A stretch of 26,268 bases of DNA from IMG/VR virus record IMGVR_UViG_3300035698_019105, positions 1-26,268 of that record; one strand, given 5' to 3'. Below are positions 3,048 through 26,268 of this stretch, in pieces. A program made the position numbers and the translations under genes. The notes under the pieces were generated by a model. It was given only the letters and a program-made list of their open reading frames with translations. It was not told where the DNA came from and did not search any database. How positions within the stretch are numbered: position 1 is the stretch's first letter; every line of letters begins with the position of its first letter. The stretch comes from a virus.

Positions 3048-3401
3048 GTGGAAAAGGAAAAGTTTGAAGACGCTGATCCAGGACATAAAGAGAACGAAGG
3101 AGCAAAATTTGATCTTGGTAAAAACAGATATGATTTAATACCTGGAGATGCTTTTGATGAATTGGTAGCGGCGTATACATATGGAGCTAAAAAATATGCT
3201 GATAATAATTGGCGTGAAGGTATGAAATGGGGTAGGGTGTTTGGTGCTTTGATGAGACATTCGTGGGCATTTTGGAGAGGAGAAGAAAGAGATCCAGAAA
3301 GCGGTTTACATCATATGGCACAAGCTGCATGGCAATGTTTAACCTTAATAAATTATTGTAAAACTCATCCTGAGTTGGATGATAGAGTTAAAGATTTATA
3401 A
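3048..3401 (+). CDS. dATP/dGTP diphosphohydrolase-like protein (DUF5664, MazZ-like)
   Basis: This 117-residue protein is of the DUF5664 (dGTP_diPhyd_N) type, an all-alpha nucleotide pyrophosphohydrolase related to the MazG/MazZ group. These enzymes split (d)NTPs to (d)NMP and pyrophosphate. Visible motifs are GAKFDLGKNRYDLIP (residues 18-32), YGAKKYADNNW (45-55), LMRHSWAFWRGEERDPESG (68-86) and HHMAQAAWQ (88-96). The acidic and histidine residues (E79, E80, D82, H88, H89) could hold the metal and phosphates. Translation starts at GTG 3048, with AAAGGGG upstream. Such genes occur in many phages. Some, but not all, accompany 2-aminoadenine (Z) genomes. No PurZ is seen in this window, so a Z genome is not claimed. 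It may act with the HD protein at 4067. Confidence 0.82.
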   Translation: MEKEKFEDADPGHKENEGAKFDLGKNRYDLIPGDAFDELVAAYTYGAKKYADNNWREGMKWGRVFGALMRHSWAFWRGEERDPESGLHHMAQAAWQCLTLINYCKTHPELDDRVKDL

Positions 3402-4066: not shown

Positions 4067-4627
4067 ATGGTTTCAATACAGGAAAAGGAACAAACATTTG
4101 TTAAAGAATTAGAATTAATATTTAATAAGAAAATAAAAGAGTTTGCTAGATTATGTATTGTATCTGCGCCGGATTATTTTTTTACAGATTGTCCGGCAAG
4201 TTCAACTGGTAAGTATCATCCATTAAATGAACTTGGACCTGATGGTACTATTATTCATACTAAAAAAGTATTTACTACAGCATATGAATTGTGTAGAGGA
4301 ATGGGATGTGAAAATAATAGAGATATAATTTTAGCTGCGTGTTTAGTTCATGATTTGGTAAAGCAAGGATGGAAACGTAGTGGTCATACACATAAAATGC
4401 ATCCTGCGTTTGGAGCACAATTAGTGGAAAATGTTCAGAAAGATACACAGATTTTAGATAAAGAACAGTTTGTAGTGTTACGTAATTGTGTTGGTTATCA
4501 CTATGGTTTATGGTCTTATGGTGATTGGAAAAAGGATTTAAATGATTACACTTCTGAAGAGCTGTGTGTGTATTTATCTGATTACATAGCTAGTAAAAGA
4601 TGTGTAGAGGTTTCTTATAAAAGATAA
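4067..4627 (+). CDS. HD-domain phosphohydrolase
   Basis: This 186-residue protein belongs to the HD superfamily of metal-dependent phosphohydrolases. The metal-binding pattern H...HD...D is visible as H64 (GTIIHTKK), H95-D96 (CLVHDLVKQ) and D172 (YLSDYIAS). H107 and H112 fall in a TGHT-like segment and H145 lies in GYHYG, as in other phage HD proteins that begin 'HP.NE.GPDG...HT'. Substrates of the family include nucleotides, cyclic nucleotides and RNA ends, so the exact reaction cannot be read from sequence. Lying between the DUF5664 and uracil-DNA glycosylase genes suggests nucleotide or base quality control. DatZ of Z-genome phages is also an HD enzyme, but I see no feature tying this protein to DatZ. 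Confidence 0.8.
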   Translation: MVSIQEKEQTFVKELELIFNKKIKEFARLCIVSAPDYFFTDCPASSTGKYHPLNELGPDGTIIHTKKVFTTAYELCRGMGCENNRDIILAACLVHDLVKQGWKRSGHTHKMHPAFGAQLVENVQKDTQILDKEQFVVLRNCVGYHYGLWSYGDWKKDLNDYTSEELCVYLSDYIASKRCVEVSYKR

Positions 4628-6550: not shown

Positions 6551-9500
6551 TTGGCTAGAAAAACCAGTTATGAAGAGTTAATTATACAAGGTAAACAACT
6601 GATAGATTTTTATAGAAACTATCCAGTAATAGCAGCATATGATTTACTAAATGTAGATCTAGCACCAATTCAAAGATTAATATTTAATGACATGTGGTTT
6701 AAGAATTATACCATAGCTGTCTGTGGCAGAGGTGTCGGTAAAACATTTATGTTAGGCACATTATCTTGCTTGAGTTGTTTGTTATATCCTGGTTATAGGG
6801 TTGGTTTGATAGCCCCCGTTTTTAGGCAGAGTTTTCCAGTAATGTCAGGTACTTACGACACTTTCTGGACTTCAGATGGGCTACAAACTACAGCACAGAA
6901 TTTTTATGATTCTATAGAAGAAGGCGTAACAAAAACACAATCATTAAAGCACCAAAATACTATTTTGAGCAAATGGGAAAATCCAGAACGCGCTTGTAGA
7001 AGTATAAAAACAACAAAAGGTTTTGAATTGGCAGGTACTGTGGATCATGGAATTTTAATTCTAAATATTGAGTTAGATTTAGTATATAAAGAACTTCAGG
7101 ACATAACTAAAGAAGACAACATTGTAATTAAAAAAGGCTTTAAGTATTTCGGTAATGATGATTCAATGCCTCCTTTTGATGAGTTTGAAACTGATTGGAG
7201 AACTAAAGATTGTAAGATACCAGAAAAATTAACTCCTGATTTAGCGTATTTATTTGGTTTAATAACAGGCGACGGTTGTATTTCAATCAGTAAAGATAAA
7301 AGAAAACAACGAGTGGATTTTGTTAATGAGGATCAGGATTTATTGGATTACTTCGAGAAGCATTTATCTGAATATTTTGCTGATGATGTTGAAAATATAG
7401 GCAGAAGAAATAGAAAAAATAATACTTGGGAAATAGAATATTATAGTAAAAAATTAGCTAATTACTTATTAAAGTGTGGTTTTACTAAAACAACAGCGTT
7501 AGATAAAAAAATTCCAGATGTGATTAAGAAATCTTCTCAAGAATGTGTAAAGCAGTTTCTTATAGGATTGATGGATACAGATGGCTGCGTCTATATTCAA
7601 AATGGTAAATATACACATTGTGAAATAGCACTAAACACCTCGTCATTACAATTAGCAAAAGAAGTCCAAGCGTGTTTTCTCAACTTTGGTATAATGACTA
7701 ATTTAGGTATAAGCAAAAAAGCAGGTAAACGAAAATTAAATGGTAGAGACAAAGTGTCAGTTTGTGCTGAGGCCTATAAAGTAAGAATTACAGGACTACC
7801 AGATCTGTTTAGATATAGAGAAGAAATAGACTTTAGGTGTAAAAGAAAAGCAGATAAATTAAACAACTATCTTAATAATGTAAGTGGCAAAACAAGCTCT
7901 GCTGATAAAATACCTAATACATCATCTGCAGTAAAACAATTGGCTTTAGTGTGTAAAGAGTTTACTTTACGTGGTAGTAAAGATGCTGTTATATTAGGAA
8001 AGACAATAAATAATAGTAGTAATAGTAACAATATAACTAAAGAAAGAGTAGAACTAGTCTTACAATTAGCAAACAAGTACGAAGTAAGAACCAATAGTTA
8101 CTACAAACTGAAGTCATTACTAGAATTAGATTTATCTTTCGTTCAAATGACTGAATCGGATTATTTCTTTGCTCCTACCGTAGATGCGGAAATAGATAAA
8201 GAATCGTGTTATTGGTCTAATGGGTTCATTTCTCATAATTCAAAAATGATATTTTCTGAAGTAGAAAAATTATATAGTAAATCTCCAATTCTAAGAGAAG
8301 CGTGTGAGAAAAGACCTACTAGAGGGGCTGATACTTGTTATTTGAAATTTAAAGCTGTAGGAGGTAGAAATGGGTCTTTTGTGGAGGCATTGCCATTATC
8401 TGACGGATCTAAAATAAGAGGGTCACGTTTTTATTTGGTTCTTATGGATGAGTTAGCTCAGATACCAGATAAAGTTATTGATATGGTGATCAGGCCTATG
8501 GGTGCTACTACTTTGGAGCCTATGGAGAATGTAAGAAGACTGGAACAACAAAAAATGCTCATAGAACAGGGATTAGCAACTGAAGATGACTTTGAGGATG
8601 ACACTGTCAATAAGATGGTTATGACATCATCTGGTTATTATAAATTTAATCATATGTGGCGAAGAATGAAAGATTACTGGCGTCAAATGGAAATGTATGG
8701 AGATGATTCTCAATATGCTGTTTGGCAGGTTCCTTTTTGGGATTTACCAGAAGGTTTTCTTGATAGGGCAAATATTCAGGAAGCTAAACGAATAATGTCT
8801 AATCAAGAATATAGGATGGAATATGAAGCCGCGATGATTTCTGATTCAGAGGGATTTTTTAAAGCTTCTTTGTTAGAATTATGTACTCAAAGTAGTGGGT
8901 TTTCTTTAGAATTAAGAGGCGATCCTATTGGTTCTTATGTTGTAGGAATTGATCCAAATCAAGGCGGAAGCGCTAGTTGTGGTGTTGTAATAATAAGATG
9001 TGGTGCTGTAAATCAAATAGTAAATGTGCTTGAATTAAAAAGACAAACTACTCAGGAATTAACTACGTCTGTACAGGACATATGTACTAGATATAATGTT
9101 GTAAGGGTTTTTATGGACAAAGGCGGTGGAGGAAAAGCAGTAATGGATTTACTTGAGGAAGGTTATAGTGATAGAGAGCCTATAATTGATAGAACAAATG
9201 AAGATCATAGGCATATGAAAGGACGTCATATATTGGAGATGGTTAATTTTAATCCGGCATGGATAGCAGATGCTAATTTTACAACTCTGTCTCTTTTAGA
9301 AGATCAAAGATTGAAATTCCCAGAACCACCAACATCTACCTTGGACATAGAGGCCATAACATATGAAAATATAAGAACCCTTAAATCACAGATGTTAAAT
9401 ATAATAGTTACGCAGACAGGAAGTGGTTTACTTCATTTTGATACCCCTAAAAAAGGACAAAATAAGGATTTATATTCAGCTTTAATTTTAGGAGCCCACG

Positions 9501-9676
9501 GTGTTAGAATGGTAGAAAAAGAATTAGAGGATTCAGGTGAACCAGTATTATATAATTCAAGTGGTATGCTTAGGTCACGTCAACCAGGAGCTGCTTGGAA
9601 TGTTTCGACTGCAGGTGGGTCTAAAGTGGGCACTAATGTGAGAAGTCATGCTGTTTTGAAGAAAAAAATTAAATAA
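6551..9676 (+). CDS. Terminase large subunit, interrupted by an intein
   Basis: This is the ATP-driven DNA packaging motor and headful nuclease. The primary product is 1041 residues; removing the intein (residues 94-563) leaves 571, normal for the family. ATPase motifs are Walker A G59-R-G-V-G-K-T65, the APVFRQ segment just before the intein, and Walker B L629-V-L-M-D-E634. The RNase-H-like nuclease domain shows three acidic residues: D801 (VVGIDPNQGG), D856 (VFMDKGGGG) and D973 (NKDLYSAL). Translation starts at TTG 6551, next to the small subunit's stop, with GAGGAGG inside the end of that gene. The joined exteins read APVFRQ-SKMIFSEVEKLY, the continuous pattern expected of uninterrupted terminases. 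Packaging depends on splicing, because the intein splits the ATPase domain between Walker A and Walker B. Confidence 0.95.
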   Translation: MARKTSYEELIIQGKQLIDFYRNYPVIAAYDLLNVDLAPIQRLIFNDMWFKNYTIAVCGRGVGKTFMLGTLSCLSCLLYPGYRVGLIAPVFRQSFPVMSGTYDTFWTSDGLQTTAQNFYDSIEEGVTKTQSLKHQNTILSKWENPERACRSIKTTKGFELAGTVDHGILILNIELDLVYKELQDITKEDNIVIKKGFKYFGNDDSMPPFDEFETDWRTKDCKIPEKLTPDLAYLFGLITGDGCISISKDKRKQRVDFVNEDQDLLDYFEKHLSEYFADDVENIGRRNRKNNTWEIEYYSKKLANYLLKCGFTKTTALDKKIPDVIKKSSQECVKQFLIGLMDTDGCVYIQNGKYTHCEIALNTSSLQLAKEVQACFLNFGIMTNLGISKKAGKRKLNGRDKVSVCAEAYKVRITGLPDLFRYREEIDFRCKRKADKLNNYLNNVSGKTSSADKIPNTSSAVKQLALVCKEFTLRGSKDAVILGKTINNSSNSNNITKERVELVLQLANKYEVRTNSYYKLKSLLELDLSFVQMTESDYFFAPTVDAEIDKESCYWSNGFISHNSKMIFSEVEKLYSKSPILREACEKRPTRGADTCYLKFKAVGGRNGSFVEALPLSDGSKIRGSRFYLVLMDELAQIPDKVIDMVIRPMGATTLEPMENVRRLEQQKMLIEQGLATEDDFEDDTVNKMVMTSSGYYKFNHMWRRMKDYWRQMEMYGDDSQYAVWQVPFWDLPEGFLDRANIQEAKRIMSNQEYRMEYEAAMISDSEGFFKASLLELCTQSSGFSLELRGDPIGSYVVGIDPNQGGSASCGVVIIRCGAVNQIVNVLELKRQTTQELTTSVQDICTRYNVVRVFMDKGGGGKAVMDLLEEGYSDREPIIDRTNEDHRHMKGRHILEMVNFNPAWIADANFTTLSLLEDQRLKFPEPPTSTLDIEAITYENIRTLKSQMLNIIVTQTGSGLLHFDTPKKGQNKDLYSALILGAHGVRMVEKELEDSGEPVLYNSSGMLRSRQPGAAWNVSTAGGSKVGTNVRSHAVLKKKIK
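6830..8239 (+). mobile_element. LAGLIDADG homing-endonuclease intein in terminase large subunit
   Basis: This 470-residue in-frame insertion excises itself from the protein and can spread its gene by homing. The N-terminal residue is Ser94 (RQ/SFPV), and the C-terminal junction is GFISHN/S564, the classic His-Asn before a nucleophile. Block B is G162-T-V-D-H166. The endonuclease has two LAGLIDADG motifs, LFGLITGDG (residues 234-242, D241) and LIGLMDTDG (337-345). The block F-like segment is PTVDAEIDKESCYWSNGF. Block A is unusual: serine replaces the common cysteine and the sequence around GTYDTFWTSDG is only loosely like CLxxDT. The boundary was chosen because joining residue 93 to 564 restores a conserved terminase motif. 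Confidence 0.92.
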
Positions 9677-12480: not shown

Positions 12481-14445
12481 ATGGATACTATTACATTACA
12501 GCAAGTAACTGCAGACTTAAAAAATAAATACCCGACTGTTGGAATTGAATCTATAGAAGTAGATGAAAAATCAGGTAAGTCTACTTTTTATTTACAACCC
12601 ACTAAGAAGTCGCTTGCTTTTTTAGAAAATCCAGGAGCCGCTGTTATTCCAAGGCAATTTAGAGAAAAAGCAGCGGTAATCGCAAGAGATCCGGTTGATA
12701 GAGGTAATTTAGATTTAGCTCTGCCTGATCATTATACTGCTGCTCCAGCAGAATCGTTTAAAAGAGCAATGGAGTATTATTATACAGATCCATTAGTGGG
12801 AACAGCAACAAATTTGCTAGCAGCTTTGTCCGCTAAAGGGTTTGAAAATGATTTGGATGATGAAAAAATAAAACAATTTTATGATGTTTGGGGCTTTGAT
12901 GTAAAATTAGATGAAGTATTAGAATGGGTATTTTTGGATTTTTTTAAAACTGGTCATGTAACTACGTATAAAGTGCTAGCCAAATATGAACCACGTGTTT
13001 CTTACCTTTCTCCTATTCCAGGCCAAAAAATGAAAAAGAATGGAAAAACTACCGGAAGTAGTAAATCATTGATGAGATTAATGAAAATGATGGAAGAGGA
13101 AAGAAAAGAATTTAAAGAAATATATATTGCTAAGATAAGGGAAGAAGGTAAAAGAGTTACTAAAAAAAGACTAGTTGAAATAGAAGATGCAGCAAAAAAG
13201 AATATATGGAGTAAAGGGCATTTACCTGTAGCGTATACTGTTTTAAATCCATTGTTAGTTAATATAGAAGGTAATTTGTTGTTTGATAAGTATACCGTTA
13301 AACTTACACCGCCGCCGGAATTAAGAGCCATGATGCAGAAGGATAAATCAAAGCTTACTGAAGAAGAAAAAGAATTAATTAAAGCTTTGCCAAGTGATCT
13401 TAAACAAGCTGCAGAAAAAGGCGGTGAATTTCAATTAGATTCTCGCTTGGTTGGTGCTGTAACTTATAGAAAGCAGCCGTATGAAAGATATGCGAGACCG
13501 AGGGCCGCCAGAGTGTTTGATTCTATAGAGTATAAGAAAACACTTAGAAATGCTGATCTAAGTACTTTAGATGGTATTACTAATTTTATTTTAAAAATAA
13601 CTATTGGTAATGATGAATATCCTGTTGTATCTCAAGCAGAATTGGAGGCAGTAGCACAATTATTTAATACACCATCTAAAAGTTTTGATGTGGTTTGGAA
13701 TCATACTCTTGAAATAGAAAAAATAGTATCGCCTGAAATAGCTTCTATTCTTGGACAAGGTAAATATGAGCAAGTTAATGAGGACATGACCGGTGGTCTT
13801 GGTATACCTAGAGCTATTATTGATGGTACTGGAGAAGTTAATGCTGCTGAAGTTGGTCTTATGGTTAAAGGATTAATGGAGGAAATAAATTACGCCAGGC
13901 ATCAAGTTACAAGATGGATTTATAGAGAATATCAGCAAATAGCTGAAGCTATGGGATTTGATAGATTTCCAAAAGTTAGATGGGATGAAGGTGTATTGAA
14001 AGACACAATACTTTATATGAATACATTGGCTCAGTTAGTAGATAGACGCATGCTTAGTTATAGAACCTCATTAGAAGCATTAGGATTTGACTTTCCGCAA
14101 GAATTACAAAACATGGAAGAAGAATTCGATCTTGTTGATAAAGGTATTTTTGGTATTATTGGTTCTCCATGGCAACAAGCTAAGGTTCAGCCTGGTCAAA
14201 AGGCCCCTGTAGGAACTCCTTCTTCAGGAAGACCGCCAGCTAAACCTAGTAAAAAGAAACAAACTGATACTGATCCGCAGAGTAAGTTAAAGAAAACTGT
14301 GCATAAGAAACCAGCAAAACCAACAAGTACTAAATCACCAGAACAGAAAGTGGCCTCTTCAACTATTGCTGATGTGGTGAAAGATATGAAAGATGAGGAG
14401 TATGTTTTATTTAGACAAACGTTAGATAATATAAGAACAGAGTAG
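12481..14445 (+). CDS. Portal protein
   Basis: This 654-residue protein matches the size and layout of phage portals, the dodecameric ring at the head vertex through which DNA enters and leaves. Characteristic segments include ESFKRAMEYYYTDPLVGTATNLLAALSAKGFEND (about 97-130), a wing region with basic helices (200-250), and the late GGLGIPRAIIDGTGEVNAAEVGLMVKGLMEEI with the following RHQVTRWIYREY helix, comparable to the stem and crown helices. The C-terminal 80 residues are a disordered Pro/Lys tail. It follows the terminase block and precedes the protease candidate, the standard order. GGAG lies seven bases before the ATG. Confidence 0.85.
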   Translation: MDTITLQQVTADLKNKYPTVGIESIEVDEKSGKSTFYLQPTKKSLAFLENPGAAVIPRQFREKAAVIARDPVDRGNLDLALPDHYTAAPAESFKRAMEYYYTDPLVGTATNLLAALSAKGFENDLDDEKIKQFYDVWGFDVKLDEVLEWVFLDFFKTGHVTTYKVLAKYEPRVSYLSPIPGQKMKKNGKTTGSSKSLMRLMKMMEEERKEFKEIYIAKIREEGKRVTKKRLVEIEDAAKKNIWSKGHLPVAYTVLNPLLVNIEGNLLFDKYTVKLTPPPELRAMMQKDKSKLTEEEKELIKALPSDLKQAAEKGGEFQLDSRLVGAVTYRKQPYERYARPRAARVFDSIEYKKTLRNADLSTLDGITNFILKITIGNDEYPVVSQAELEAVAQLFNTPSKSFDVVWNHTLEIEKIVSPEIASILGQGKYEQVNEDMTGGLGIPRAIIDGTGEVNAAEVGLMVKGLMEEINYARHQVTRWIYREYQQIAEAMGFDRFPKVRWDEGVLKDTILYMNTLAQLVDRRMLSYRTSLEALGFDFPQELQNMEEEFDLVDKGIFGIIGSPWQQAKVQPGQKAPVGTPSSGRPPAKPSKKKQTDTDPQSKLKKTVHKKPAKPTSTKSPEQKVASSTIADVVKDMKDEEYVLFRQTLDNIRTE

Positions 14446-14563: not shown

Positions 14564-15700
14564 GTGCCAAATAAAAATAAACCTGTATATCTTGAAGCTG
14601 ATATAGTACTTCATGAAGAGACTGTTGCTCTTAAGGAGGCAGCGTCTTCAATTATACAGTTACCTAAAAATGAAGATAAACAACCTGATCTTCTTTATTT
14701 TTCTGCTATTTTCGTATCATCAGGTGAGAATTTAAATCATGCGTATTTTCTACCAACAGAATTGGTTCAAGCTGAAGGAACAATTGTAAATAAAGCTTTA
14801 GATGTTGAACATAATGAAAGTGAAGTTATTGGTCATATATATGATCGTGCTTTTATGGATATGGAAGGTAATAAATTAGAGATAGCTGATCTTAAAACAG
14901 AGGCTTCTTTGGATAAAAAAAATATGCATATAGCTATTGCTGGTATTATATATAAAAATAGATTTCCTAATTTAGCTGAAGAAATGGCTAATAACAAGTG
15001 GCGTGTTTCGATGGAAGCATATTACCAGGATTTCGATGTTAAAATTGGAGATTTAATTATAAGTAGACAAGAAGCAGAGTCTCTTGGTTTAGCTTCTGCG
15101 GAGGAAGGTATTTTTGGTAAAATAACAAATGTAATAAAAAATGGAACAAAAATAGCAGAAGGGGCGTTAACTAGGGTATTGAGGGGTATAGTTTTTAGTG
15201 GTTGCGGGGTGGTTAAAAACCCAGCTAATCCTCCATCTGTAATATTGGAAACAGCAAAGAACAAGGAATCAAAAGAAGAAGATGAAGAAGGAATTATAAT
15301 ATTAGATTATGATAAATTAAAGCAATCTGATGAAAACATTAATAATGTAACCTCTATACATATAGAAACCAAAAAGGAGAAGGAAGAGTCTGAATTAGTA
15401 TATAACGATTCTGTAGGAATATGTGTCAGTTTTAGTAGAAGAGTTCTCGATGCTACATTTGAAAGTCCTGACACTAAAGTTATACATGAGAATTGGTGTA
15501 CTTTATATGACACAGGTTGTACTTCTTTTTCTAGAGATACAACTGATCCAAAATGTATAAGAAATAAAGATGTCACTAAGAAGGCTAAAGCTTATGTGAA
15601 TAAACTAGTTGTAGAGAAAGAGGACGAGGACAAAAGAAACAATTTGGTAACAGATTTAGAATTAGCTTTAGAAAAAGCTGATAAAGCATTAACCAATTAA
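14564..15700 (+). CDS. Prohead protease candidate
   Basis: This 378-residue protein starts at GTG 14564 with AAGGAGG upstream. The N-terminal 220 residues resemble the HK97-type prohead protease group, which cleaves scaffold and capsid proteins during maturation. NKALDVEHNESEVIGHIYD holds H83, and NKWRVSMEAYYQDF holds S149, fitting the His and Ser of that catalytic set; SGCGVVKNPANPPSVIL (about 212-228) matches its conserved ending. The C-terminal 150 residues are charged, with a patch of four cysteines (GICVSF, NWCTL, TGCTSF, PKCIR) that is unusual for the family and may form a second small domain. Position between portal and scaffold supports the call. Cleavage sites were not identified. 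Confidence 0.68.
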   Translation: MPNKNKPVYLEADIVLHEETVALKEAASSIIQLPKNEDKQPDLLYFSAIFVSSGENLNHAYFLPTELVQAEGTIVNKALDVEHNESEVIGHIYDRAFMDMEGNKLEIADLKTEASLDKKNMHIAIAGIIYKNRFPNLAEEMANNKWRVSMEAYYQDFDVKIGDLIISRQEAESLGLASAEEGIFGKITNVIKNGTKIAEGALTRVLRGIVFSGCGVVKNPANPPSVILETAKNKESKEEDEEGIIILDYDKLKQSDENINNVTSIHIETKKEKEESELVYNDSVGICVSFSRRVLDATFESPDTKVIHENWCTLYDTGCTSFSRDTTDPKCIRNKDVTKKAKAYVNKLVVEKEDEDKRNNLVTDLELALEKADKALTN

Positions 15701-17896: not shown

Positions 17897-18964
17897 ATGG
17901 ATAGACAAGAAATGATGGAGCTTTTTAGAGCCACTGCTGACATTCATACACAAGAAGGTATGGCTGCCTATAGAGCTTTTGCCGCTGCGTTGACAACTCC
18001 AATTCTACAGAAGATTGAACTGGAATCAATTATGCGAAAACTATTCGCTGTTGAAAGACTTGGGCCAGGTGCGCAAGCAGTGTACCCTGTTGCAGAGGAT
18101 TTTGAGATTCCGGTGTGGGTACTTCCTGGTTTGGGCTATGTGGCTCAGAACTTCATCGAAGGTATTGGTGAAGAGGTTTATGTTCCCACGTTTACTATAG
18201 ATGCTTCTGCGGATTGGAAAATTACATACGCTAGAGATTCTCGTATTGATATTGCCAGCCGGGCCGCTGCGAGGGCCGCTAAGGATCTGGCTAACTATGA
18301 AGAGGAATGTGGTTGGAGAGTTATTATGCCTTCGGCTACTTCATCTTTCTCAGGAAAGGGACTGCTTGGTTCCAGACCTGCCCCTATTTATGAAATTAAC
18401 CCGGCTTCTACTGGAGCTGGTTACTTGTCAAAAGAGCTCATCAATAAGATGATGGTTGGTTTTAAAAGAATAGGAAGAACTCTTACGGATTTATATGTGT
18501 CTCCAGAAGATGCTGCTGATATCCGTGAGTGGACGGATACGGATATTGACCCTGTGACCAGAAGAGAGATTTTTCAAGCTGCTGGTATGGGTAGTATTTG
18601 GAATGTGAGTTTGCATGAAGTTCAGCATTTGGGTGCTACTGGTATGTATAATATCAACGGTGCCACTTCAGCATATGGTAAGTTTCTTGCTACTGCTGGT
18701 GCTTACGGTTCTTATACGTTAGATAATGCTAATATTACTTCTGCTGATGGTACAATTGATACTCTCGGTGAAACACAAATTCTTGGTTTTGACTTGGGTG
18801 TTAATGATTCTCTTGTCATGCCTATCCGTAAAGAGTACGAGGCCCATGATGACCCAACTTTACTTAGAGTTCAGAAACAAGGATTCTTTGGATGGGCAGA
18901 GCTTGGCTTTGCTTGTTTAGATAGTAGAATGATTGGTATGGGTGTTATTGATAGAAGTCTATAA
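17897..18964 (+). CDS. Major capsid protein (HK97 fold)
   Basis: This 355-residue protein has the features of an HK97-type shell protein. An N-terminal helix (MDRQEMMELFRATADIHTQ) leads to an extended loop segment (about 66-105), a long spine helix region (IDIASRAAARAAKDLANYEEE) and A-domain strands. LTDLYVSPEDAADIREW is the typical 'thlyvspe' segment, and the C terminus reads GFFGWAELGFACLDSRMIGMGVIDRSL. It sits after scaffold and decoration genes. AAGGAGGAG precedes the ATG. Codons are the most GC-rich in the window, consistent with the highest expression. A strong hairpin follows the stop codon. Confidence 0.9.
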   Translation: MDRQEMMELFRATADIHTQEGMAAYRAFAAALTTPILQKIELESIMRKLFAVERLGPGAQAVYPVAEDFEIPVWVLPGLGYVAQNFIEGIGEEVYVPTFTIDASADWKITYARDSRIDIASRAAARAAKDLANYEEECGWRVIMPSATSSFSGKGLLGSRPAPIYEINPASTGAGYLSKELINKMMVGFKRIGRTLTDLYVSPEDAADIREWTDTDIDPVTRREIFQAAGMGSIWNVSLHEVQHLGATGMYNINGATSAYGKFLATAGAYGSYTLDNANITSADGTIDTLGETQILGFDLGVNDSLVMPIRKEYEAHDDPTLLRVQKQGFFGWAELGFACLDSRMIGMGVIDRSL

Positions 18965-18972
18965 GATATAAA

Positions 18973-19015
18973 TGCTTAGCACTTCATTTTAAATGAGGTG
19001 CTAAGCTTGCTTTAA
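18973..19015 (+). terminator. Hairpin/terminator after the major capsid gene
   Basis: GCTTAGCACTTCATTTT pairs with AAATGAGGTGCTAAGC over about 15 positions, including one G-T pair, directly after the capsid stop. The downstream tract TTGCTTT is only moderately T-rich, so it may terminate partially or protect the capsid mRNA 3' end. Confidence 0.6.
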
Positions 19016-19060
19016 ATGAATGGACAAGGGAAATAAATACTATTGAAAAGGAGAATAATT

Positions 19061-19555
19061 ATGAAAGGATTTGTTAAGAATTCTACACCAGTATGGGCTC
19101 ATGCTATGAAAAGAGCTATTGGGCCTAATCAAATTGTTCTATTAGATGATTTATATGAACAATATGGTAAAAAGCATGATTTGGCTGAAGGAGAGGAATT
19201 TGTAGGTTGGTTAAGATCTGTTAAATTAAGAGATACTAATCGCTGGCAAATAAATTTTGAAGGTATTATTGAAAGTAAGGAACAAGAAATAGAAAAACAA
19301 GAAATAGAAGAATCAGATATAGAACCGATGGTTGTAGAAGTGAGAGGAGGAGTTATGCCTCCAATAGTTCCTGTTGATATGGAGGTTAAAGATGTTGTGT
19401 CATTATCGGTTCGTAAGTCTAGAGAAATAGTACCTAAAATTACTGATTTGAAGTTATTGAAATATGCAATGCAAGAAGCAAATCAGTTAGCAAATAAAGA
19501 TAGTTTATGTAGAATTTTGAGAAAAAGAATTAGAGAAATTGAAATTTCTAGATAG
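19061..19555 (+). CDS. Conserved post-capsid protein, unknown
   Basis: The longest frame starts at TTG 19043, but ATG 19061 with AAAAGGAG eight bases before it is the clear start, giving 164 residues. The N-terminal 60 residues (VKNSTPVWAHAMKR, GPNQIVLLDDLYEQYGKK, FVGWLRSVKLRD) resemble a small domain often encoded after capsid genes in large phages, possibly binding the shell or head-tail junction. The middle is an acidic linker with a repeated KQEIE unit, and the C terminus is a basic helix. The role is not established. Hairpins on both sides isolate this gene as a separate transcription segment. Confidence 0.6.
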   Translation: MKGFVKNSTPVWAHAMKRAIGPNQIVLLDDLYEQYGKKHDLAEGEEFVGWLRSVKLRDTNRWQINFEGIIESKEQEIEKQEIEESDIEPMVVEVRGGVMPPIVPVDMEVKDVVSLSVRKSREIVPKITDLKLLKYAMQEANQLANKDSLCRILRKRIREIEISR

Positions 19556-19686: not shown

Positions 19687-22098
19687 ATGGATAAGATATC
19701 AAATCTTGCAATAATTAAAAAGGAAAAAAGCCCTAAAGATTTAACTTTTAAGTATGTGGATGATGAAAAGGATATGAATAGAAGGAAAATTATATTTAAA
19801 CATAGTAGGGCTATAGGAGATACTTTGATGTTTACGGCGGGGGTGAGGGATTTTAAGCTTTTATTTCCGGATATTGAGATAAATGTTGACAGTAATTTTC
19901 CAACTTTGTGGGAAAATAACCCTTATCTTAGTAGTAATATAAAGAAAGGTGATCCTGGAGTTGAATTTTATAAAGTAGGCTATCCTATCATCAATAATTG
20001 TAATGATTCATATATGCATTTTACAGCGGGGTTTTTATATAATATGATAGCGACTGTAGATGCACATGAACGATTACCTATGTCTATCGGAGAGTTTGCT
20101 TCTGTTTTTTCTGGAGGAGAAGTAGGTGACTATGGTTTTGGTAAGGCTGAAGGTGGTGTTGATGGGCCAAGGCTTTTAACTACTCTTCGAGAAAAGTATG
20201 GCACAAGAAAACACAAAGGTGGACTTGCTCATTTACCTAAACATCTACAAGATGTATATGGAAATCAAGATAACTTTTGTTCTGTTTTTGGAAGACAGCG
20301 AGCCGATATTTATTTAACTGAGAAAGAGAAGTCTTATAGTTTGATAAAAGATCTTTATGGTGATGGTGTTAAATACTGGGTTATATCTCCAGGCGGAAAG
20401 ACGGATTGTACATGTAAAATTTGGGATTGGAGAAGATTTCAAGATGTTGTAAATCATTTTGATGGGTTGATTAAATTTGTAGTAATTGGTAAAAGCGATC
20501 ATGTGGTAGAAAAACTTAAAAACGTAATAGATCTAACTGATAAGTTTAATGATGATGTTAGAGGAATAATACCTCTTGTCTATCATTCTGAAGGGTGTGT
20601 AAGTGGGGTTTCTTTTCTTATGCATCTAGCGGCTGCGGTTCCTTCAAGATTTCGACAAGAAAGAAAACCTTGTGTTGCTATTTATGGTGGTCGTGAGCCA
20701 ACGTCTTTTACTGCTTATTGCAATCATCAAATATTACACACTAATGGCGCTTTTACTTGTTGTGATAATGGCGGGTGTTGGCATTCAAGGGTGGTACCAC
20801 TGTCAACAAACCCTAAACGAAATACGAGGTTTTGCAAATTGTCAGTAGAAGTGGAGGACAGGACTATTCAGGAATGTATGGAAGCCATATCTGCTAATGA
20901 TGTTATAAGAGCCATAGAAAAGTACTATTCTGGAAATATTTACAGTTATATGGAAAAGACTATTAAGCCTCCTAAAATTGAGATAGCGGAACCTATTGTA
21001 GCTAAATCTTCAGATCAGGAGATTAATGTTCTTGCATCTTTATCTTCAAAAGGAGGCGGCGAACAATCTGCATGTATGATAGTAAAGCTTCTTAGAAAAA
21101 ATGGCTGGAAAGTTAATTTTCATCCTTGGGATAAAGTTCACGAAGATTATGACAAAAAAGAACTTGATATAAGTAAGTATTCTTTTAAGGAAGGAATGCA
21201 AAAGAACATGGTTGTTGGTGTTCCATTGTTGTTTTACGCTAATGATCAGATAGGTGCTTTTTGTGAAGAATCGCAAGCTATAGTAGAAAAAAGTTCCGCT
21301 GTTATGATAGGCATTAATTATGTGAATAGTAAACTACCTAAATGTAGATGGTTAGACAAGACTAATAAATTAAGAGCAGTAATTTTTCAAAATACAGAAA
21401 AAAGAGATGAGTTTGAATGTGATAGGTTAGGATTTGAGAATACAAAACAAGTTGTTTTATTTGGTGCTATAGATCTTAATAAATATCTAGAGGTATGTAA
21501 TAAGAAAAGAACAAAAGATGATCCTTTTGTGATATTAAAACATTGCACGGCTGATTGGAGGAAATATGTTACTGAAGAATCATCTAAAAAAGGCTCAAAA
21601 ATTCATTTATGGCAAAAGAAGTTTTTTAAAGAGCCTGATACTAAATTTTATACAAGATTACTAAAAGACACTAAGAATACCAGATTTGAATTTATGGAAG
21701 CTCATAAAGAATTAGTTGATTATTTTAAAGATAATAAACGTATGGTTTTTCATAAATGGAATTCTATGGATGTTGGGGAATTTCTTTCTAGAGGACATCT
21801 TTATTTGTATAGGTCCTCTAATGCCTGGAGAGATCAGTATCCACGTGTAGTGGCTGAAGCTCTTGCTGTTGGTTTGCCGGTATTAAGTGAACCTAGAGAT
21901 GGTACACGAGATAGAGTTGTGCATGGTACAACTGGTTTTTATTGTGTACATTATGATGAATTCCTACTTAATATTAAAACTTTGCAGAGGAAAACGGATT
22001 TATGTTATTCCATGGGCAATACAGCAAAGAAATGGGCAAAGAAAAATTTAGATCCTGAGAAATGGATAGATATTATAGGAGATATATTAGATGGCTAG
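19687..22098 (+). CDS. Two-domain glycosyltransferase, GT9-like plus GT4-like
   Basis: The frame is open from 19618, but ATG 19687 has AAAAGGAG upstream; 803 residues. The first half resembles family 9 heptosyltransferases: KHSRAIGDTLMFTAGVRDFKLLFP (38-61, with G44-D45), a later VISPGGKTDCTCKIW, and the donor-site stretch CVSGVSFLMHLAAAV and CVAIYGGREP. A cysteine-rich CCDNGGCW follows. The second half, from about 445, is GT-B family 4 type: LASLSSKGGGEQSACM, then PRVVAEALAVGLPVLSEPRDG (719-739), the nucleotide-sugar-binding helix. Both domains probably transfer sugars from nucleotide donors, perhaps adding two successive units. It overlaps the next gene by eight bases and leads the block. 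Confidence 0.82.
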   Translation: MDKISNLAIIKKEKSPKDLTFKYVDDEKDMNRRKIIFKHSRAIGDTLMFTAGVRDFKLLFPDIEINVDSNFPTLWENNPYLSSNIKKGDPGVEFYKVGYPIINNCNDSYMHFTAGFLYNMIATVDAHERLPMSIGEFASVFSGGEVGDYGFGKAEGGVDGPRLLTTLREKYGTRKHKGGLAHLPKHLQDVYGNQDNFCSVFGRQRADIYLTEKEKSYSLIKDLYGDGVKYWVISPGGKTDCTCKIWDWRRFQDVVNHFDGLIKFVVIGKSDHVVEKLKNVIDLTDKFNDDVRGIIPLVYHSEGCVSGVSFLMHLAAAVPSRFRQERKPCVAIYGGREPTSFTAYCNHQILHTNGAFTCCDNGGCWHSRVVPLSTNPKRNTRFCKLSVEVEDRTIQECMEAISANDVIRAIEKYYSGNIYSYMEKTIKPPKIEIAEPIVAKSSDQEINVLASLSSKGGGEQSACMIVKLLRKNGWKVNFHPWDKVHEDYDKKELDISKYSFKEGMQKNMVVGVPLLFYANDQIGAFCEESQAIVEKSSAVMIGINYVNSKLPKCRWLDKTNKLRAVIFQNTEKRDEFECDRLGFENTKQVVLFGAIDLNKYLEVCNKKRTKDDPFVILKHCTADWRKYVTEESSKKGSKIHLWQKKFFKEPDTKFYTRLLKDTKNTRFEFMEAHKELVDYFKDNKRMVFHKWNSMDVGEFLSRGHLYLYRSSNAWRDQYPRVVAEALAVGLPVLSEPRDGTRDRVVHGTTGFYCVHYDEFLLNIKTLQRKTDLCYSMGNTAKKWAKKNLDPEKWIDIIGDILDG

Positions 22099-22651
22099 AC
22101 GACAAGATTGGTCAATAATTGAACAGCTAGGTGATATCATTTTAAATAATGTTGAAGGACAGATACTTGAAATAGGAATTGGACATTCAACTCCCATCCT
22201 TAGTAGATTAGCTGATGAGTTTGATAGAACTCTCTTTTGTCTTGAGAAGAGTGAGTGGCGATGTAATTGGGCAAAGATGTTTGGTTGTACAATATTCCAA
22301 GGAAAGTCTCTAACTAATATGAATAAACTTTCAACAATTCCTATAGCTTTAGGTTTAATTGACGGTAAACATAAAGCAGATACAGTAAGGGCTGAGATTG
22401 CTTTTTTTATAGAAAGGCTATCAATTGGTGGTGTAATTTTTTTACATGATACTTATAGACTCTCTTCTCCACTCTTGAGAAAAGGCAAAGATTGTTATGA
22501 CGAAAAAGCTATAGGAGATGTTTACAAAGTTAGGCAAGAATTAGAGTGTTTAGATAACGTACAGACTTTTACATGGCCCTACACAGCTATGAGCTGTGGA
22601 TTAACTATGGTCATGAAACTGGATCTCGGGAGGCCTTACTATGAGTCATAA
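22091..22651 (+). CDS. SAM-dependent methyltransferase-like protein (1)
   Basis: This 186-residue, class I Rossmann protein has motif I ILEIGIGHS (residues 25-33), a second-strand acidic FCLEKSEW, then ALGLIDGKHKADTVRAEIAFFIERLSIGGVIFLHDTY. That is the Methyltransf_24-like 'DG.H......D...w...L..GG.i..HD' pattern. It has the fold to bind S-adenosylmethionine; the acceptor is unknown, perhaps a sugar hydroxyl, as such enzymes often accompany glycosyltransferases. It overlaps the preceding stop and the following start, indicating tight coupling. Confidence 0.75.
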   Translation: MARRQDWSIIEQLGDIILNNVEGQILEIGIGHSTPILSRLADEFDRTLFCLEKSEWRCNWAKMFGCTIFQGKSLTNMNKLSTIPIALGLIDGKHKADTVRAEIAFFIERLSIGGVIFLHDTYRLSSPLLRKGKDCYDEKAIGDVYKVRQELECLDNVQTFTWPYTAMSCGLTMVMKLDLGRPYYES

Positions 22652-23177
22652 GATGAGTCAATCACAAGTTCTAGTAGATATGATAACAGATCTTAATAAG
22701 AAGAATTTAGTAATTGCTGAGTTAGGAATTTGGAAAGCACATACTGTCAAGCGAGTTTTTAAAAATCACAGTGATGTTATAAATCAATACTGGGCAGTAG
22801 ATTTTTGGGAATACTCAAACCACTGGAGTTACCGAAAAATTACACCAAAGCAATGGCAAGAATGGTACATCTATGCATCCAGGTTAATGCGATGGTGGCC
22901 CCAACTGTGTGTTGTAAGGGCAACAACTTTTGAAGCATCTAAAATGTTTCCCGAACAATATTTTGATTTAGTATTTATAGATGCAGACCACACCTACAAA
23001 TACATAATGGAAGATATAAAAGCTTGGTTGCCGCTAGTAAAGGATGGAGGCATATTATGTGGGCATGATTATGGAAGAAGCAAGAAAGATGTTAAAATAG
23101 CAGTGGACGAATGCTTCGGTGATAGTATTAAATTACTTGATGCTACAGTATGGAGTGTAGATGTTAAACATAAATAA
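22641..23177 (+). CDS. SAM-dependent methyltransferase (2), Methyltransf_24-like
   Basis: This 178-residue class I methyltransferase has motif I VIAELGIWKAHT (24-35), DLVFIDADHTYKYIMEDIKAW (109-129) and PLVKDGGILCGHDYG (131-145), a close fit to the Methyltransf_24 group that includes sugar and small-molecule O-methyltransferases. ATG 22641 has GGGAGG at proper spacing and overlaps the preceding gene. It is related in layout to the upstream methyltransferase, perhaps by old duplication. The substrate is inferred to be a glycan made by this block. Confidence 0.82.
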   Translation: MSHKMSQSQVLVDMITDLNKKNLVIAELGIWKAHTVKRVFKNHSDVINQYWAVDFWEYSNHWSYRKITPKQWQEWYIYASRLMRWWPQLCVVRATTFEASKMFPEQYFDLVFIDADHTYKYIMEDIKAWLPLVKDGGILCGHDYGRSKKDVKIAVDECFGDSIKLLDATVWSVDVKHK

Positions 23178-23210
23178 TATACAAGGTAAAATTAATTAGG
23201 AGCATATAGC

Positions 23211-23867
23211 ATGGGAATGCACTTCAAAGATATAAAATATTTCGAAGAAATTACTGATTGGCTTAAATACAGAAAACGTATAGAGGATCTGAATGGATTG
23301 TGTATATGTGAGATAGGGGACTTGTGGCTTCGTGGAGATCTCCATAACTATACTGTACATCGTACAGCTAGGCAGTACTTTGAAAGTAAGGGGATCGACA
23401 CTACAGTAATTGATTTGGGTATAGGTCAGGATAAGATTACAGAGGGAACTTTACAATATGATTTAACAAAACCTATACCAGAGAGTGTGGGAAAATTTGA
23501 TTTTGTTGTAGATTTTGGGACTGCTGAACATATAGAGAATCAATACGAATTCTTCAAAAATATACATAATTTATGTAAAGTTAATGGTGTGATAATGATG
23601 TCTAATCCGTCAGATAAATATAGTTTCAGACATCCTGGTAAACATCATGGTTTATTTCACTACACTTCAATATTCTATTTAAAACTAGCTAAACTTTGTA
23701 ATTATGAAGTGCTAGATGTTAGAGAAATGACTCAAAAGTATATAATAAAAATCCCATACAGAAAAAATTTCACGTATGTAACTATGATAAAATTGACAGA
23801 TATCAGCTTTCCTCCTCTTGATGATTTTGAAAGGATAGCTGTTGAATTAGGAAACTACAAGACATGA
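23211..23867 (+). CDS. SAM-dependent methyltransferase-like protein (3)
   Basis: This 218-residue protein has a Rossmann pattern: CEIGDLWLRGD near residue 33, TTVIDLG, then KFDFVVDFGTAEHIENQYEFFKNIHNLCKVNGVIMMSNPS, the Methyltransf_11-type motif IV-VI stretch. It ends with a distinctive GKHHGLFHYT segment. The glycine-rich motif I is degenerate, so cofactor binding is less certain than for its neighbours. AGGAG lies eight bases before ATG 23211. Its last four bases overlap the next gene (ATGA), so the two are coupled. Confidence 0.7.
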   Translation: MGMHFKDIKYFEEITDWLKYRKRIEDLNGLCICEIGDLWLRGDLHNYTVHRTARQYFESKGIDTTVIDLGIGQDKITEGTLQYDLTKPIPESVGKFDFVVDFGTAEHIENQYEFFKNIHNLCKVNGVIMMSNPSDKYSFRHPGKHHGLFHYTSIFYLKLAKLCNYEVLDVREMTQKYIIKIPYRKNFTYVTMIKLTDISFPPLDDFERIAVELGNYKT

Positions 23868-24778
23868 AAATCTTACTAGTAGCTTGGAACAGAGAAAGAA
23901 AAGGTAATGTAAACCATGAGTTATTTAGAAGAGAGCTTGCAAAACAACACGATGTAATATTTCATGGTAGAGGATACGAAGGATACAATAGAAACCTTTC
24001 TGTTCCAGATATGGTGGAAAAACACCAAGTTGATATTGTTCTTACTCACTATGAACACAGAAGCAGAACTTTAGCTAACGGGATAGAAAACGTTAAAAGC
24101 ATCCCAAAGGTACATATTATGGGTGGGGATTATGATGAAGGCACATATAAAGGATACAACTCACATTTTAATAGATCAAAATATGATATAATTTTTTACA
24201 GGTACAATTTGCAGTCGAGAAGATTGAAAGAGCATAATGTAGGCGGAGTACACCGTCTTCTCCCCTGGTCTGTAGATACTACTGTATTCTATAATCAAAA
24301 TATAGAGAAAACTATAGATGTTACGATGTGCTCCCAAAAAAACCGTTCTCATCCTCATCGTTATATAGGATATAAGATAGTACGTAAGATGAATGTAAAT
24401 AGCTCTTTAGATAAAGCTTTTTTTGATGAATACATAAAGAAAATTAATAAATCTAAGATTTTCGTTACTAGCAATACATACGAAAAAGAGCTAACTGGAA
24501 AGTATTATGAGGTGATGGTATGTGGTACTTTCTTATTAACTACTGAGCCGGAAGATTTAAGCAGGTTGGGATTTAAGGATGGACATCACCTCATAATATA
24601 TAAAGATGATTTTAGTGATTTAGAAGACAAAATAAGATATTTTTTAAAGAATGAAAAAGAAAGAGAAGAAATTGCACAACAGGGTATGCAATTTGTTAGG
24701 GAAAATCACAGTAGCGAAATTAGAGTTAGAGAGTTTATCGAAGCAGTAAAGGAGACAACCTTATTATGTGGGAACTAA
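23864..24778 (+). CDS. CgeB-like glycosyltransferase (GT-B)
   Basis: This 304-residue protein resembles CgeB-type glycosyltransferases (Glyco_trans_1_2). An N-terminal Rossmann half starts MKILLVAWN. The C-terminal nucleotide-sugar half has TGKYYEVMVCGTFLLTTEPEDLSRLGFKDGHHLIIYKDDFSDLEDKIRYFL, the family's typical 'yE.maCG.~~l......~...f..g.~...~.d..~l...i.~~l' stretch, followed by A-Q-Q-G-M and V-R-E-N-H-S. It would transfer a sugar from a nucleotide donor to an unknown acceptor. In bacteria, CgeB-like enzymes decorate spore coats and surface glycans. It overlaps both neighbours, consistent with one operon. Confidence 0.82.
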   Translation: MKILLVAWNRERKGNVNHELFRRELAKQHDVIFHGRGYEGYNRNLSVPDMVEKHQVDIVLTHYEHRSRTLANGIENVKSIPKVHIMGGDYDEGTYKGYNSHFNRSKYDIIFYRYNLQSRRLKEHNVGGVHRLLPWSVDTTVFYNQNIEKTIDVTMCSQKNRSHPHRYIGYKIVRKMNVNSSLDKAFFDEYIKKINKSKIFVTSNTYEKELTGKYYEVMVCGTFLLTTEPEDLSRLGFKDGHHLIIYKDDFSDLEDKIRYFLKNEKEREEIAQQGMQFVRENHSSEIRVREFIEAVKETTLLCGN

Positions 24779-25533
24779 TATCCCCAAGGAAAAAATTACG
24801 AGTAGGTAATCAACCTATTACACATAGAATGAAGCACGCTATAACACAACTTGAAGAGATGATAGAGAGCGGAGAACTGAAGGGTAAATTTTCAAAACCG
24901 AAATCACTTACTATTATAACCTGTGATACATATGATTACAACGACTATAGACCATACTTAATACAAAGTTTGGATTTTTTAGGAATCGAAGGGTGGCATT
25001 CGATTAAATTTGGTATATCCGACACATACAAATCTTCCACTAGAATAAAGCTGGTTCGTGATTTTCTCTCAAATAGTACCAAAACACCATATGTATTATT
25101 CTGTGATAGTAGAGATGCTATATTAAGAGACAACCCACAAAAAATAGTCGATAAATTTGAAGCTCTAGGAATAGATTTGATATTTAATTCGACAATGTTT
25201 AAGGGTGGATTTATGTGTATGGAGGAAGTCCGTAGCTGGACAAAAACAGTAGCTCGCAAGAAAGGAAGATATTTAAATGCAGGAGTATATATTGGAAAAT
25301 GGGATTTTATTTTAGATTTTTTAACAAAAGCATCAGAGTTTGTCACTCCAAATAGTTTAACAGAGGAAGAATATCATCAGACAGGGAGGGGAATTAAGAC
25401 AACAACTTTATGTGATGCTTTGTCAGAATATCCAAAGAATAGCATAGATCAAGATATATTTAGATACCTACACCCCCAGTTTTGGCCCAACTTGGATATT
25501 GATTATAGAAACGAAATTACTTATAGGAACTAA
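24766..25533 (+). CDS. PLOD-like/GT-A glycosyltransferase
   Basis: This 255-residue protein is similar in layout to the glycosyltransferase domain of procollagen lysyl hydroxylase (PLOD) and related GT-A enzymes. It shows TIITCDTYDYN at the first strand (49-59), YVLFCDSRDAIL with the DxxD-type metal/donor motif D114-S-R-D117, YLNAGVYIGKWDF (169-181) and SIDQDIFRYL (226-235). The PLOD group shows the same order: DSRD, YLNSG.~IG and DDQ~. In animals and some viruses it adds glucose or galactose to hydroxylysine or other acceptors; the phage acceptor is unknown. The first 45 residues are an unmatched helical extension. It overlaps the upstream gene by 13 bases. Confidence 0.7.
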   Translation: MWELISPRKKLRVGNQPITHRMKHAITQLEEMIESGELKGKFSKPKSLTIITCDTYDYNDYRPYLIQSLDFLGIEGWHSIKFGISDTYKSSTRIKLVRDFLSNSTKTPYVLFCDSRDAILRDNPQKIVDKFEALGIDLIFNSTMFKGGFMCMEEVRSWTKTVARKKGRYLNAGVYIGKWDFILDFLTKASEFVTPNSLTEEEYHQTGRGIKTTTLCDALSEYPKNSIDQDIFRYLHPQFWPNLDIDYRNEITYRN

Positions 25534-25535
25534 TT

Positions 25536-26108
25536 ATGGAATATATAGATAAAAAGACTGGTATATGGCACATAGATTTAACCAACAAAAGAACAGTCCA
25601 TGACCCAATACTAGCAGCTAGAATTAGTATGCTTTATACTCCAAACAAGGCGGCAGATTTAGGTTGTGCTGACGGATGGTACTGTAAACTACTTAAAGCA
25701 TATGGGTGGCCTGTAGTACACGGATACGAAGGAACTGCTAATACCAAAAATCTTGGAGTTTATGATGACATAATGACTGTGGATCTATCTAAGAAAAGGT
25801 ATGTTGATATTGATTATGATTTTGTTTTGTGTTTAGAGGTTGGTGAACATGTTCCTAAACAGTACGAGCAGACTTTCATAGACAATGTATGTGAGTACGC
25901 TAAGAAGCACTTAGTCCTAAGCTGGGCTATCCCAGGCCAAGGTGGAAAAGGGCACTTTAATGAGCAGCCTAACAGTTATATAATATCTGAGTTTCAAAAA
26001 AGAGGGTTTAAGATACACAAAAACAGAAGTAAAAAACTTAGGACATTCACTACTTTGCGTTGGTTTACAAATACTCTGATGGTGTTTTCCAATGAAAATA
26101 TGTCCTAA
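25536..26108 (+). CDS. SAM-dependent methyltransferase (4)
   Basis: This 190-residue class I methyltransferase has motif I KAADLGCADGWYCKLL (38-53), GYEGT as the acidic end of strand 2 (63-67), YDFVLCLEVGEHVPKQYEQTFIDNV (94-118), and LVLSWAIPGQGGKGHFNEQ (126-144). This set, with 'EVGEH.P' and 'SWA.PGQGG.GH.N', marks a distinct methyltransferase group common in phage and surface-glycan loci. The acceptor is not known. The gene starts two bases after the preceding stop. The partial endonuclease gene overlaps its last 17 bases. Confidence 0.83.
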   Translation: MEYIDKKTGIWHIDLTNKRTVHDPILAARISMLYTPNKAADLGCADGWYCKLLKAYGWPVVHGYEGTANTKNLGVYDDIMTVDLSKKRYVDIDYDFVLCLEVGEHVPKQYEQTFIDNVCEYAKKHLVLSWAIPGQGGKGHFNEQPNSYIISEFQKRGFKIHKNRSKKLRTFTTLRWFTNTLMVFSNENMS

Positions 26109-26268
26109 ATGTAAAGATATAAAAGAAAGAATGTATTTCTCTAAGTGTACAAAATCCAAGGATGGTTTACACTACTACTGTAAAGTGTGCACCAAACAAT
26201 ATGCTAAACAATACTACAAAGACAACAAGAAGAGAATAGACATACAAGCTAAAAATTACTATGAAGAA
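26092..26268 (+). CDS. HNH-type homing endonuclease, N-terminal part
   Basis: The frame is cut by the window edge after 59 residues. It begins MKICPKCKDIKER, and the zinc module CPKC-x-CTKSKDGLHYYCKVC followed by QYAKQYYKDNKKRI closely matches residues 8-57 of the HNH endonuclease at 9997 (CTKC...KSGLHAYCKKC...YYSNNKEHI). The nuclease core would lie beyond the window. It overlaps the methyltransferase gene by 17 bases and lacks its own strong binding site, as at 9997, suggesting a recent insertion beside that gene. Confidence 0.75.
   Translation, partial: MKICPKCKDIKERMYFSKCTKSKDGLHYYCKVCTKQYAKQYYKDNKKRIDIQAKNYYEE

Follow-up and report, generated by a model that had tools for sequence, protein, structure and literature searches.

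The seven-gene block at positions 19687-26108 of the window (the whole IMG/VR virus fragment IMGVR_UViG_3300035698_019105, 26,268 bases) forms the 5' portion of a phage glycan-assembly island that is modular and exchangeable and is headed by a GT9-GT4 fusion. With a probability of about 50%, the soluble enzymes of this island assemble a glycan on a protein of the virion and methylate it. Virus-encoded glycan assembly is known as such; what is of interest here is the exchangeable, modular organisation, the GT9-GT4 fusion at its head, and the setting in virion-gene regions of uncultured phages. Glycan genes of phages are mostly interpreted as modifiers of DNA or serotype. If the present reading is true, many tailed phages would vary the sugar surface of their particles through a mobile island of soluble glycosyltransferases (GTs) and methyltransferases, which would affect how the particles bind receptors, how they are recognised and how stable they are, and the fused GT9-GT4 gene would be a marker for finding island-bearing phages.

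All major open reading frames (ORFs) of the window are on the + strand, and its GC content is about 33%, the block (32-37%) being the same as the rest. The relevant features are the following.

6551-9676, +, terminase large subunit with intein and LAGLIDADG endonuclease domains
12481-14445, +, portal-like protein, distantly similar to the portals of Bacillus phage G and the Slash group
17897..18964, +, major capsid protein (MCP); phrog_2522 major head protein, E 1.4e-11
18974..19006, +, strong terminator-like hairpin after the MCP gene, with a 15-pair stem; putative function
19043..19555, +, o19043, small conserved gene (170 aa) that forms the spacer between MCP and island; present in 68 loci
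19687..22098, +, A, GT9-like plus GT4 two-domain glycosyltransferase, island head gene; assigned by Pfam, conserved residues and the fold of its C-terminal half
22091..22651, +, B, class I methyltransferase; Methyltransf_24, 35.0 bits (cut-off 26.3)
22641..23177, +, C, class I methyltransferase; Methyltransf_24, 48.4 bits (cut-off 26.3)
23211..23867, +, D, class I methyltransferase; Methyltransf_11, 23.8 bits (cut-off 21.2)
23864..24778, +, E, CgeB-like glycosyltransferase; Glyco_trans_1_2 (PF13524), 73.4 bits (cut-off 25)
24766..25533, +, F, PLOD-type glycosyltransferase with DxxD motif; GT_PLOD (PF25342), 33.2 bits (cut-off 27)
25536..26108, +, G, class I methyltransferase; Methyltransf_23, 29.9 bits (cut-off 27)
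26092..26268, +, 5' part of an HNH-endonuclease-like ORF, overlapping G and cut by the contig end; begins with MKICPKCKDIKERMYFSKC

The seven ORFs were indeed found to be real, contiguous, tightly packed and on the same strand, with junctions (in bases, overlaps being negative) of -8 for A/B, -11 for B/C, +33 for C/D, -4 for D/E, -13 for E/F and +2 for F/G. A GGAG-like Shine-Dalgarno sequence precedes most of the starts, and for gene A the start at 19687 is favoured over 19618 because of such a sequence. The original prediction had placed the block next to the capsid gene, which is nearly right, except that o19043, for which a Pfam search gave no match, intervenes between MCP and gene A. Given the hairpin at 18974-19006, the island may be transcribed below the level of the capsid gene; its expression would probably be late. 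At least 80 relatives of the MCP at 82-91% identity are found in IMG/VR, and tblastn returned none among cultured phages, so the window represents an uncultured lineage.

The predicted gene families also held, as all seven proteins match Pfam glycosyltransferase or methyltransferase families, the GT9 part of A being sub-threshold; judged by these matches, the falling of seven out of seven genes into two functional classes is not chance. In the C-terminal half of A, Glycos_transf_1 scored 34.3 bits against a cut-off of 26.4, and a fold search, the matches of which cover the GT4 half, assigned residues 441-803 to the GT4 fold with Z of 23-27 to solved GT4 structures. The EX7E motif of this half reads D716-x7-E724 and is invariant in 16 sequences, with the second Glu kept and the first replaced by Asp. 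The N-terminal half reached 18.1 bits with Glyco_transf_9 (cut-off 22), and its orthologues in five other loci (L005, L010, L028, L030, L034) exceed that cut-off, at 23.5-33.3 bits; Asp45 in RAIGD, which we take to be the N-terminal catalytic Asp of the GT9 family, is likewise invariant in 16 sequences. In more distant phages (L028, L030, L033, L038) each half is encoded by a gene of its own, the two lying next to each other, and the fusion thus unites partners that are otherwise found side by side. In F, CDSRD aligns with VDSYD of LH3, i.e., the DxxD metal motif, and no Pfam match to a lysyl hydroxylase domain was found in F or elsewhere in the block, which is an incomplete fragment. With two sequences as input, AlphaFold gave a poor model of F (pLDDT 47.6), which was left out of the evidence. 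Sequence searches of the PDB gave no match for B or E, and a generic methyltransferase alone for C.

By tblastn at the sensitivity used, A and E had zero matches in cultured phages, F had one distant match and C had 80 distant ones. Two peptide patterns from the A alignment, scanned against bacterial and archaeal genomes, gave 8 matches, 0 of which were confirmed; since only these two patterns were used, absence of A from cells is weakly supported. The possibility that C is a DNA methyltransferase was considered and rejected: it is a Methyltransf_24 protein, and the DNA label on some of its relatives is an inherited annotation. Its mycobacteriophage relatives were not inside any annotated glycan cluster. 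In one locus (L030:9860-11164) a C-like methyltransferase is fused to a GT2/GT7-like glycosyltransferase, placing methylation and sugar transfer on a single chain. Synechococcus phage ACG-2014f (L124:7384-9294) has a 2OG-Fe(II) oxygenase, a C-like methyltransferase and another gene in a row, soon after tail-fibre genes.

The end of the block at 26108, as first proposed, does not stand. Since the HNH-like ORF from 26092 overlaps G and runs to the contig end, the block is truncated and continues past 26108. A Pfam search of the 59 amino acids of this ORF gave no match; HNH-type ORFs are also present within the closest island, L002, the gene order of which is A, C, G-type methyltransferase, D, PIG-L deacetylase, E, methyltransferase, C-type methyltransferase, c37, HNH, G, GT2/GT7-like, HNH and c21, and which accordingly has more genes beyond the counterpart of G. 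Other islands encode epimerase/dehydratases, UDP-glucose dehydrogenase, DegT aminotransferase, PIG-L deacetylase and hexapeptide-type acetyltransferases. The proposed lack of sugar-nucleotide genes therefore holds for this fragment but is unsupported as a trait of the system, because the contig is cut in the next ORF and the islands of relatives carry such genes.

Conservation of the block was then considered in two ways, through its capsid neighbour and through its own genes. In 28 capsid-family loci, the window not counted, the sequence reaches 5 kb or more past o19043/MCP; homologues of the block genes are absent from 27 of these, and only L059, which is the same record as L002, has the island. 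The idea that the block regularly accompanies this capsid family was thus rejected (1 of 28), and its place behind the head genes is not something fixed in the lineage; in the island-free relatives the slot is filled by proteins that are Ig-like (Big_1) or resemble tail fibres (Gp53-like_C). A tree built from MCP, portal and the 14564-15700 protein (25 taxa, LG+G4, quick tree) put the window and L059 into separate clades, and their grouping into one was rejected (AU p 7.3e-5). Their A proteins are nevertheless 75% identical, while the structural proteins that they share are 32-57% identical, except for MCP (84%). In the tree of A, the window, L002 and L003 form one clade with full support, although the 108-kb record to which L003 belongs yielded no MCP of the window's type. 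Such similarity of A in non-sister phages means that the island moves or has been lost many times. It would either have entered the same slot twice or been lost in nearly all relatives, transfer being the simpler account, although the structural-protein tree alone cannot separate gain from loss. The recovered relatives of A form about 31 groups at 90% identity, and their gene sets differ strongly from phage to phage. The classes seen in the window nevertheless predominate among the 115 island-side ORFs of relatives, with Methyltransf_24 (18), GT2/GT7C (12-15), FkbM (9), Methyltransf_23 (9), Hexapep (4), epimerase (3) and Glyco_trans_1_2 (3). Conservation as a unit, which had been suggested as a check, was therefore borne out in that relatives, too, carry the genes together as an island, but the members are shuffled and swapped, and are absent from nearly all phages that share the capsid.

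Location of the island among virion genes is common, but not universal. Upstream of A lies the capsid gene in the window and L002, the terminase with an SU10-type adaptor in six loci (L005-L008, L013, L023), the tape measure in two (L018, L026), and tail fibre J in one (L020); in all these contexts the GT genes are among virion genes. They are not in the very large phages in which A is split, where the island often lies tens of kb from the terminase, and the islands of L010 and L011 have sugar genes as neighbours, with no virion gene in view. Both of these observations count against a virion target. So does the comparison of the MCPs of the two island-bearing phages, in which an acceptor hint, in the form of unusual shared columns, was limited to 1 of 363. 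The window contains no collagen-like or strongly Ser/Thr-rich protein, and no GXY tract.

With regard to mechanism, the two GT domains in the single chain of A would probably add consecutive sugars; E and F, together with the GT2/GT7-like and other GTs of relatives, may extend or branch the chain, and SAM-dependent methylation by B, C, D and G would cap it. We infer O-methylation of the sugars, the activities of the enzymes and the order of the steps, and it is to be noted that the methyltransferase families leave the substrate unfixed. TM-like segments were absent from all seven window proteins and were flagged in 9 of 139 ORFs of relatives, several of these being Rossmann-type hydrophobic starts, as against 63 of 63 in a control membrane family. 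Flippase (PF13440) and polyprenyl-phosphate sugar transferase (PF02397) were found in 0 of 19 island-bearing records, all fragments, with positive controls. These results point to a soluble acceptor or a host-supplied carrier. Because all the enzymes are soluble and encoded among virion genes, the likeliest acceptor would be a protein of the virion (capsid, head decoration or fibre) that receives its glycan in the cytoplasm, before assembly or while it proceeds. Overall, the proposed building and methylation of a glycan is supported, and decoration of the virion is the target to which the context points best.

Location apart, a virion-protein acceptor is favoured by analogy with the chlorovirus PBCV-1, in which one protein with two GT domains and a methyltransferase domain, together with another methyltransferase, completes the capsid-protein glycan, A064R/A061L building and O-methylating it (PMC9614988). 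Common to both systems are a virus-encoded multi-domain GT and class I SAM methyltransferases for glycan assembly and O-methylation. However, PBCV-1 is a eukaryotic virus with a glycan proven on the capsid protein; the GT families also differ, the phage domains being GT9-like and GT4, and the phage methyltransferases are separate genes. According to the passages on mycobacteriophages in PMC12619734 (citing Freeman 2023), these are tailed phages with GTs whose capsid and tail tube subunits are glycosylated; compared with what is described there, the enzyme set of the island is larger, and its glycan is a predicted one. The large 'moraphages' of the same source resemble the island phages in having several GTs, among core genes, in uncultured large phages; this likeness is one of description rather than of compared lineages, and a methyltransferase is unmentioned there.

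F shares the PLOD GT domain and the DxxD motif with Mimivirus R699 and the human PLOD/LH3 collagen glycosyltransferases (PMC9546862), but, unlike them, it has no hydroxylase domain, and a collagen-like protein is absent from the window. In 11 records of cultured phages, PLOD/LH3-like enzymes combine GT25 and GT_PLOD with a 2OG-Fe(II) oxygenase domain for which the match is weak, as in gp58 of Roseobacter phage CRP-6 (L126:5702-9314) and its cyanophage relatives. All five loci examined (L126-L130) have a neighbouring tail-fibre gene with 55-99 consecutive collagen GXY triplets, of which 22-26 have Lys in Y, so that, on these sequences, enzyme and fibre are likely a phage pair for collagen lysine hydroxylation and glycosylation. 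Since both the hydroxylase and a collagen-like protein are missing here, the PLOD-type GTs of cultured phages support a fibre target for F by analogy only.

Three other targets were weighed. GT9 enzymes classically act on the LPS core, and GT4 enzymes and methyltransferases are common in O-antigen loci. It is therefore conceivable, if somewhat unlikely, that the island alters a glycan on the surface of the host cell (LPS core, O-antigen or wall polymer) by way of host carrier and export, blocking superinfection or releasing progeny from receptors. The Pfam name of GT9, as relatives of LPS-core heptosyltransferases, the O-antigen-like combination of GT4 with methyltransferases, the sugar-nucleotide genes in the islands of relatives, and the ability of phage GTs to convert host serotype (PMC12619734) would all fit. 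However, no membrane protein, flippase or polyprenyl-phosphate transferase was found, although host carriers would still be usable, and the island is repeatedly placed among virion genes, which is also compatible with use of such a carrier. Distinctly unlikely is a product with no relation to virion, surface or DNA, namely a small glycoside or a polysaccharide that is secreted or stays in the cell, or else a host-protein acceptor; the substrates of the seven enzymes are not fixed and the gene sets vary strongly between phages, as this would allow, but the repeated coupling to virion genes would be left unexplained. Modification of phage DNA against restriction (glycosylated, methylated hypermodified bases) is very unlikely, and DNA a less likely acceptor than a virion protein: DNA-acting phage GTs are well known (PMC12619734, PMC9614988) and some relatives of C are annotated 'DNA methyltransferase', but that label is inherited by a Methyltransf_24 protein, the thymidylate-synthase-family hydroxymethylase PF00303 was in 0 of 19 records (fragments; controls positive), and TET/JBP PF12851 was also in 0 of 19 (fragments), with a silent control.

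Building on the preferred reading of a methylated glycan on a virion protein, a broader one may tentatively be put forward, namely that a widespread, horizontally exchanged cassette with the GT9-GT4 fusion, here phage-only, could give uncultured bacterial viruses lineage-specific particle coats of methylated glycan, swapped at the slot of surface and fibre-like proteins, a possible phage counterpart of the glycans on giant-virus capsids.

Elsewhere in the window, the C-terminal end of an actin-like protein is cut by the contig start (2-289; best Pfam match Volactin, 48.5 bits, over the cut-off). A protein with the dATP/dGTP diphosphohydrolase N-terminal domain (3048-3401; 113 bits) is encoded close to an HD-domain protein (4067-4627), and the two possibly act on purine nucleotide pools.
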